Shown in pieces: positions 47,255-57,042 of a DNA stretch of 64,000 nucleotides. The translations under genes and the position numbers were made by a program. The notes under the pieces were generated by a model, which saw only the letters and a list, made by a program, of their open reading frames with translations, was not told the origin of the DNA and did not search any database. Source of the stretch: Mycobacterium senriense (GTDB taxonomy: Bacteria > Actinomycetota > Actinomycetes > Mycobacteriales > Mycobacteriaceae); NCBI RefSeq assembly GCF_019668465.1, contig NZ_AP024828.1, positions 5,642,001 through 5,706,000 of the forward strand, given 5' to 3'. Position 1 is the stretch's first letter. Each line of letters opens with the position of its first letter.

Positions 47255-48304
47255 CTATGCGCGTACGCGACCCGACGAAGACGCGCCGTTGCAGTACCCG
47301 AGTTGCGGATACCGACGGGTGGTGACGGTGATCGCACCTTCGGTGTTGGTGATGGTGGCGCCCTCTGCGCCGACGGTGGCGGTGGCGGTTCGGTGCGCGG
47401 GGGTTATGACCTCACCCACGTGTGGGCCGGCACCCGTGGTGGCGGAGCCGCTGAAGAGCTCGATTTCGACCTTGGCGCGGCGGTACTGGGTGAGGGTGAA
47501 CGGACCGTAGCTGCCGGCGTGTAGTCGAGTGTTGGAAGGGATTACGGCGCCGCCCGCGTAACACCTACCAAGGGTGGTGACAGTGCTGCCGTCGTTGATG
47601 GTGACGGGGACGTTCATTACGCAGGTCCCGGCGCCTTCCACGGTGATGGAGCCGCTGTTGACGAGCATGCTGGTGCCTTCGGCGAGAGCGATGGTGCTGC
47701 CATACGGGAGGGTGACGGTTTGACCTTGCAGGATGCGGATGCCGATGGCGGGGCCTGCATTCCGGACGGTGGTGTTGGCTGCGGCCCGGGCCACCGCACG
47801 AGCAAGGGCGCCCTGCCCGTGGGCATCATTGGTCTGCGATGGTTCGCCGCCCAGGATCGGGGCGCTCGTGGACGCGGAATCAACGGCAGCGCCGTCCGCT
47901 TCCGCGGTGGCGTCGTCTTGGACCCGTGTTTCGGCGTGCCGAACTTCGGCGTTTTCTCCATCACTCTTGTGGTAGTCCGGTGAACGGGTCGCTGCGGTTA
48001 CCGCACCCGGCCCGGCAAGCATTGCCATCAGTCCCTTGAGGAACGTGCTTGCCATCGGGATCGCTGCGGTGTGCCGAGCGGTGGCGTTACGGCTGGCAGC
48101 AACGGACAACAGCGAAGCCGTCTCGATCCGCGGGGCCGCCGTGGACCAGCTCAGCGGCACCGATAACGGCCCGCGCGAGATCGCCTTGCCGCGCCGTCCG
48201 GAGGCCTCGCCCGACGGGGACTGCACCGGCTCGGGTGCCCTGGGGTTCCAGTCGTCGCCTCGCCCAACACTTTCCGCGATCTCGCCTGTGTGAACCGGAC
48301 CCAT
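47255..48304 (-). CDS. Putative partner protein of the giant PPE, beta-module containing
   Basis: 349 aa starting at ATG 48304, which shares its T with the PPE stop (TGATG), so translation is very likely coupled. Residues 1-85 are low complexity. A hydrophobic stretch after M84 (MASTFLKGLMAMLAGPGAVT) resembles a signal peptide, so ATG 48055 is an alternative start. The middle is Ala-rich and polar. Residues about 190-230 (GQTVTLPYGSTIALAEG, then MLVNSGSITVEGAG) parallel the first solenoid module of the PPE protein (GNTVTIDPGASLIADSG, STLTVDGTITIDGG). Three cysteines follow (GTCVMN, GRCYAG, GYCNGA). I know no family. It may be a secreted or surface accessory to the PPE. Confidence 0.6.
   Translation of the reverse strand: MGPVHTGEIAESVGRGDDWNPRAPEPVQSPSGEASGRRGKAISRGPLSVPLSWSTAAPRIETASLLSVAASRNATARHTAAIPMASTFLKGLMAMLAGPGAVTAATRSPDYHKSDGENAEVRHAETRVQDDATAEADGAAVDSASTSAPILGGEPSQTNDAHGQGALARAVARAAANTTVRNAGPAIGIRILQGQTVTLPYGSTIALAEGTSMLVNSGSITVEGAGTCVMNVPVTINDGSTVTTLGRCYAGGAVIPSNTRLHAGSYGPFTLTQYRRAKVEIELFSGSATTGAGPHVGEVITPAHRTATATVGAEGATITNTEGAITVTTRRYPQLGYCNGASSSGRVRA

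Positions 48305-57042: not shown

Follow-up and report, generated by a model that had tools for sequence, protein, structure and literature searches.

A giant PPE protein of Mycobacterium senriense with a predicted beta-helical rod, a candidate self-associating surface adhesin

A stretch of 64,000 nt from Mycobacterium senriense (GCF_019668465.1, contig NZ_AP024828.1, positions 5,642,001–5,706,000 of the forward strand; here called the window, from whose first letter all coordinates are counted) carries on its minus strand, at 48304..57042, a giant gene for a PPE protein of 2,912 residues. We propose that about 2,440 of these residues form a long right-handed beta-helix rod, and that the protein is exported by the type VII system ESX-5 to serve as a self-associating adhesin at the cell surface, a reading to which we give roughly even odds (about 0.5). 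The PPE head, a 14-residue repeat, a tail held in common with relatives, a kept gene order and purifying selection are supported directly.

Architecture of the giant and its 14-residue repeat

The gene reads as a single open frame of 2,912 codons, from an ATG start to a TGA stop, without interruption, just as it had been given in a preliminary description made from the letters before any database search. A purine-rich stretch directly 5′ of the ATG (GAGAGAAGG, 57045..57053, minus strand like every part of the gene) is a candidate ribosome-binding site. The N-terminus is a standard PPE domain, again in keeping with that description: Pfam PF00823 matches residues 2–163 (56554..57039) at 216.8 bits against a cut-off of 26, placing the protein in the PPE family, and the WxG turn motif of the family is present as WLG at residue 57. 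It is followed by a repetitive linker rich in Ser, Gln and Thr (residues 181–395, 55858..56502), evident from the translation and with 15 SQQ or TQQ words within residues 181–400; by the repeat body (residues 396–2840, 48523..55857), a predicted beta-helix; and by a Pro-rich stretch and C-terminal tail (residues 2841–2912, 48307..48522; PGLSGLAGLSGIQGPQ), recognised in a 15-row alignment of C-terminal parts. The layout first described, a PPE domain plus a repeat, is borne out, but the linker is a separate part and the final 72 residues make up a tail of their own. A Pfam scan of the protein up to E = 1 returned PPE and the Fil_haemagg repeat PF05594 only, and an NCBIfam scan gave no match.

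The repeat unit, captured in a cyclic 14-position profile, reads G-G-T-L-T-D-[SG]-G-T-[VL]-T-V-x-S and fills the body from about residue 399 to 2840. The autocorrelation of these residues peaks at 14, 28, 42 and 56, with weaker peaks at 8, 20, 34 and 48, and the profile scores +2404 on their true order against −561 to −659 in three residue shuffles, which confirms the periodicity originally noticed over about 2,440 residues. Cutting the body with the profile yields 195 segments, 127 of them exactly 14 residues long and the others mostly half-units of 6 or 8 residues and near-units of 12–13; because half-units occur, the pattern suggests that the single strand is the building block of the repeat. 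At 2442/14, or 174 unit-equivalents, the length agrees with the 170 units counted at the outset, but these are units of sequence and not coils of a solenoid. Gly makes up 25% of the body, Thr 19%, Val 13%, Ser 12%, Leu 9% and Asp 6%, and Asp occupies unit position 6 in 88% of units. Aromatic and basic residues, at first said to be absent, are nearly so, yet the body holds 15 Phe and 2 Tyr (no Trp) and 1 Arg and 3 His (no Lys), beside 155 Asp and 1 Glu.

A direct offset scan of the repeat for block duplications found eight segments, and in-frame duplications cover 488 bp (93.9% identity, offset 374 residues) and 398 bp (92.5% identity, offset 416 residues); the length of the rod may well change through in-frame duplication of such blocks of units. 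The plus strand over the repeat also holds long frames (2,393 residues at 48596–55777 and 1,852 residues at 48049–53607), which are probably a by-product of the repetitive, GC-rich codons and might be mistaken for genes in annotation.

Predicted fold and likeness to self-associating adhesins

The suspicion that the passenger is of an adhesin or filamentous-haemagglutinin type has held up, both in the match to Fil_haemagg PF05594 (80.8 bits against a cut-off of 21.5; the window protein and two of the five relatives scanned exceed the cut-off) and in a predicted fold that comes closest to adhesin passengers. AlphaFold2 was run on shallow alignments (8 and 3 rows, consisting of window rows and contig-scan loci only), and its models are all-beta rather than disordered, but of low confidence (mean pLDDT 55.6 for residues 396–800). 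Eight Foldseek matches in the PDB fall below 1e-3; each bears the title Ag43, TibA or "self-associating protein", and their TM-scores are low. VIA-align ranks Vag8, pertactin and Ag43 above the entry 3p4g (rank 24); a sequence search of the PDB gave no matches.

The type V proteins Ag43 and TibA, self-clumping adhesins of E. coli and the best neighbours of the predicted fold, resemble the giant in their repeat rich in Thr, Asn, Asp and Ser, whereas the giant shows no C-terminal autotransporter beta-barrel domain in the Pfam scan (E ≤ 1), has a PPE domain at its N-terminus and comes from an organism with another kind of cell envelope. Filamentous haemagglutinin and the exoproteins of two-partner secretion (TPS) share the haemagglutinin repeat PF05594 with the giant, which differs from them in its PPE head and in having no TPS secretion domain (PF05860) in the same scan. 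Variants of Ag43, a three-stranded beta-helix, self-associate mainly by hydrogen bonding, in which Thr, Asn, Asp, Ser and Gly take part together with a few Arg, and aggregation is tied to an L-shaped bend (PMC8993888). The body of the giant is rich in the same residues, Arg excepted, and since Leu and Val are also predicted to lie inside, a surface rod that associates with its like on neighbouring cells is the function we favour.

In the mechanism that we envisage, each unit would form two short strands (T-L-T and T-V-T-V), with Leu and Val pointing inward and Thr outward, so as to give a rod with long polar faces of Thr, Ser, Asn and Asp. At three strands to a coil, the body would comprise about 116 coils and extend for about 56 nm, or about 84 nm if one 14-residue unit were one coil. 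The PPE domain, aided by EspG and by a PE partner encoded elsewhere, would take the chain through ESX-5, a route that we infer from the PPE domain and from the use of ESX-5 by SVP and MPTR proteins (PMC7028111); no PE gene was found within the stretches fetched around the solenoid loci, among the matches listed. The Ser/Gln/Thr linker would then cross the envelope, and the rods of neighbouring cells would bind side by side in the manner of Ag43 through hydrogen-bonding arrays of Thr, Asn, Asp and Ser, leading to clumping and biofilm.

Relatives of the giant and a GIQ-tail class of PPE proteins

With residues 396–900 as the query, the solenoid matches 17 of 297 Mycobacterium genomes (E ≤ 1e-10), the window genome included. 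The 26 stretches fetched from the other 16 represent 23 distinct loci, L022, L024 and L026 being extra pieces of split loci whose joining is judged from identity and gene order. In 21 of these a PPE domain precedes the repeat in the same frame (20 loci are complete, and L040 is cut off at a contig edge); L045 has neither a long solenoid frame nor a PPE match, and L046 is broken, its PPE piece lying in different frames. One or more PPE-headed loci occur in every one of the 16 genomes, the locus of G001 being the contig-cut one, and the occurrence of the combination in other mycobacteria, raised by the preliminary description, is hereby established. The 17 closed frames measure 713–2,946 residues from stop to stop, with at least 1,500 residues in 11 of them; loci with frames of that size include some from single-contig genomes, and the six members scanned have no added Pfam domain over cut-off.

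A contig scan found five loci, three of them mycobacterial (M. vulneris DSM 45247, 92%; a Mycobacterium metagenome-assembled genome, MAG, 88%; Mycobacterium sp. E183, 42%) and the others in an alphaproteobacterial MAG (29%) and a Mucilaginibacter MAG (30%). In all three close orthologues of the giant (L021/L022 in G274, L023/L024 in G048, L025/L026 in G199) the gene is interrupted inside the repeat by the end of a contig, and such genes are therefore probably under-counted in draft genomes; as far as the contigs extend, the three frames are open and not broken. A homologue search with the whole protein returned 258 proteins, with no mycobacterial name among the best 120, most of them without a name. 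The best match, P0001 (42% identity over 24%), lacks a PPE domain and bears its comparable repeat after an N-terminal part of another kind; these proteins and the two non-mycobacterial MAG loci were considered as kin and set aside, their likeness being read, short of proof, as shared composition or convergence. A phage search gave no matches and a plasmid search 42 records, the best 20 of which match residues 1–176 only.

Genome G076 holds several solenoid or tail copies that look frameshifted or broken (L034 at 6987–8474 and 9438–12983; L045; L046), and the family seems to decay in this lineage. Beside the solenoid gene of G235, L044 contains pieces of PPE frames (10130–11008 and 12328–12891), one of which ends in the GIQ tail described next; a tandem origin of these pieces is possible.

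From sequence features we propose a "GIQ-tail" class of PPE proteins, defined by a PPE head, a beta domain that is stretched in some members and a PGLxG...GIQ tail, and the window giant has all of these features. The tail PGLxGTxGIQPQ is common to most giants and to PPEs of ordinary length, with frames of 384–495 residues. Thirteen of the 18 loci whose 3′ end is closed (the 17 closed frames and L040) have a PGLxG...GI tail, 12 with GIQ and one with GIH, and five (L033, L034, L035, L036 and L041) are without it; in the window's clade the tail reads SCCRYI..NGGRCCW, and the Cys pairs are retained in G199. A tail profile run over 401 genomes of the family matched five, all of one genus, PPEs with 384–495-residue frames among the matches. 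Eight of the nine short stretches read encode a PPE protein that combines a small beta-type domain with the tail PGLAGT[AS]GIQPQ, which the tail pattern did not find in L088. These short proteins (P0122 and others), annotated as PPE family, PPE-repeat or hypothetical proteins, have the PPE head, linker, beta-type domain and tail of the giants, but their frames are of 384–495 as against 713–2946 residues and contain no long array of 14-residue units; the giants would accordingly be part of a wider class whose short members bear a small beta domain at the same place. A C-terminal profile built on six short members matched 27 of 294 Mycobacterium genomes (E ≤ 1e-10); the sole match in G000 and in G199 is the small ORF downstream of the giant, and one match in G038 is a solenoid gene. 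The C-terminal part of one short member matched at least 97 proteins of a large protein set, 95 of them with a PPE domain, and no plasmids.

Two trees of the PPE domain were compared, with branches regarded as safe at 95/80. The first holds 51 of 78 PPE-matching frames, after exclusion of duplicates, of frames with fewer than 165 matched residues (including L040) and of L047–L049; the second adds eight short rows and drops ten distant loci of the window genome (L068, L070, L072, L073, L075 and L077–L081). Without the short members, the giants form the window's clade of four (100/100), a clade of 17 (98/93) and L043 alone, and 51% of bootstrap trees give one origin of the long solenoid. In the second tree the branch that unites all 22 giants and the eight short rows has 91/79 and falls short of the safe mark, while a safe branch (100/95) unites 18 giants with the eight short rows and leaves the window's clade of four outside. 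Long and short members are intermixed; the bootstrap range is three to four changes, and 0% of the trees show a single one, but the safe branches do not force more than one change. Because of this intermixing, the long rod was probably gained or lost more than once.

MPTR proteins have pentapeptide repeats with the motif NxGxGNxG. This motif is absent from the giant, as is a PF01469 match from its Pfam scan, and the same holds for SVPxxW (the PPE-SVP motif, of the GxxSVPxxW region) and PF12484, so that the protein is, as first described, neither MPTR nor SVP; the PPE-PPW motif PxxPxxW, which lies 10–30 residues from the C-terminus, is missing as well. A review divides the PPE proteins among PPW, SVP, MPTR and others (PMC7028111). 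PPE-MPTR proteins (PF01469) share with it a PPE head and a very long repetitive C-terminal part for which a beta-solenoid is predicted, in their case with 10-residue coils (PMC9663297), whereas the giant has a 14-residue unit without NxGxGNxG, a Fil_haemagg match and a GIQ-type tail. With PPE-SVP proteins (PF12484) it has the head in common, but it lacks SVPxxW, an SVPxSW stretch being found instead in the small downstream ORF, and is 6–8 times longer than the intact SVP members of M. tuberculosis (350–468 residues; PMC7028111). PE_PGRS proteins likewise join a type VII-type N-terminal domain to a long Gly-rich repeat, but their head is PE, not PPE, and the PGRS repeats have been modelled as sail-like polyglycine-II sandwiches (PMC11939664).

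The initial claim that a PPE domain with a solenoid-like passenger is an undescribed class was thus overstated: because MPTR repeats have already been predicted to be beta-solenoids (PMC9663297), "PPE plus solenoid" is not wholly new. The novelty is the 14-residue, Ag43-like, GIQ-tailed PPE class and not the pairing as such; no description of a 14-residue, haemagglutinin-like, GIQ-tailed PPE class was found among the papers listed by searches of PMC.

Selection, alternative readings and significance

In comparisons of the minus frame with three orthologues (M. vulneris, G048 and G199), the ratio of nonsynonymous to synonymous change (dN/dS) is 0.15–0.27 in the solenoid, near 0.2, and 0.11–0.22 in the PPE domain. 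The linker has the lowest identity of the parts compared (60–89% between orthologues), and residues 2791–2912 are 71–93% identical in the three relatives. The gene order comM–dprA–giant–small ORF–siderophore-interacting protein (SIP)–FMN dehydrogenase, pieced together from two halves wherever a contig ends within the giant, is kept in all four species of the clade.

These data bear on other explanations of the rod. It could be a passive surface coat or antigenic decoy of variable length, that is, a stiff, repetitive and cheap polar layer without specific adhesion. Such a coat would accommodate the fourfold size range of the 17 closed loci (713–2946 residues) with no added Pfam domain in the six scanned, the in-frame block duplication and the decay of copies in G076 (L034, L045, L046). 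However, a dN/dS near 0.2 in the repeat and the tail in 13 of 18 loci indicate that sequence matters and not just bulk, and the top Foldseek matches are adhesins; we consider a mere coat unlikely, at perhaps one chance in a handful.

Much less probable is an RTX-like calcium ladder, a rod stiffened by Ca2+ at the regular Asp, as the preliminary description conjectured. The Asp at position 6 in 88% of units fits this idea, and the surplus of acidic residues in the body (155 Asp, 1 Glu; 1 Arg, no Lys) would call for counter-ions. Yet the idea goes unsupported: the RTX motif GGxGxD (of GGxGxDxUx nonapeptides) has no match in residues 399–2840, and a three-sided coil, if the predicted fold is right, would place Asp at a corner only every second coil, in alternation with Ser or Asn. 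Marginally less credible again is the binding of an ordered surface (ice, cellulose or mineral) by outward Thr-x-Thr arrays, as in beta-helical antifreeze proteins: 3p4g ranks under Vag8, pertactin and Ag43, the RTX motif is absent from the body, and TxT would be expected anyway in a Thr-rich beta-helix. That the body is a non-functional low-complexity expansion behind the PPE head, or an assembly artefact, is very improbable, for while repeats expand readily and the three orthologue assemblies break within this one, frames of at least 1,500 residues recur in 11 of 17 closed loci, single-contig genomes among them, dN/dS is near 0.2 and gene order is kept. We give equally little credence to an outer-membrane uptake protein, as proposed for some PPEs, whose beta domain lines or plugs a pore: the SIP gene downstream would suit it, but no barrel pattern is evident in the repeat, and a rod of the predicted length would far exceed the thickness of the envelope.

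The small downstream ORF (47255..48304, minus strand; 349 residues) comprises an SVPxSW part and a beta domain, without a PPE domain, and its start overlaps the stop of the giant by the final base (TGATG). Its match to PPE-SVP PF12484 (21.8 bits) is just under the cut-off of 23, and its beta domain resembles that of the short GIQ-tail PPEs (38% identity over 234 columns to L082). It stands behind the giant's tail in all four clade species under weaker constraint than the giant (dN/dS 0.39–0.64); a search of L027–L046 (frames of at least 100 residues) gave a single weak match, in L034 (2.2e-5), and plasmids and phages gave none. It may act as a partner, or it may be a PPE-SVP relative in slow decay. 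On the other side of the giant, towards dprA, G+C drops to 0.58 at 57001–58000, and two adjoining minus-strand frames at 57600–57960 resemble one small gene, possibly frameshifted. Another, divergent PPE domain lies elsewhere in the window (13598–14071, plus strand, in a 438-residue frame); its 158.5 bits are the second-lowest score among the genome's 33.

Returning to the self-associating surface rod, we tentatively suggest a further step, less secure than the adhesin itself, in which the giants are the mycobacterial counterpart of the self-associating autotransporters of Gram-negative bacteria, the beta domain of a GIQ-tail PPE having been stretched repeatedly by in-frame block duplication. 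If so, rods of 50–80 nm would be delivered through the mycomembrane by type VII secretion, and cell–cell clumping would be a function of PPE proteins. This poses the puzzle of how a type VII system would pass a beta-helix of 2,400 residues across the envelope, the more so as a review reports no known type VII outer-membrane component at its time of writing (PMC7028111). The functions of most PPE proteins are unsettled, which gives the giant its relevance: the locus points to a further PPE subgroup, present in other mycobacteria, whose predicted fold is recognisable and whose proposed role in clumping and adhesion can be tested.
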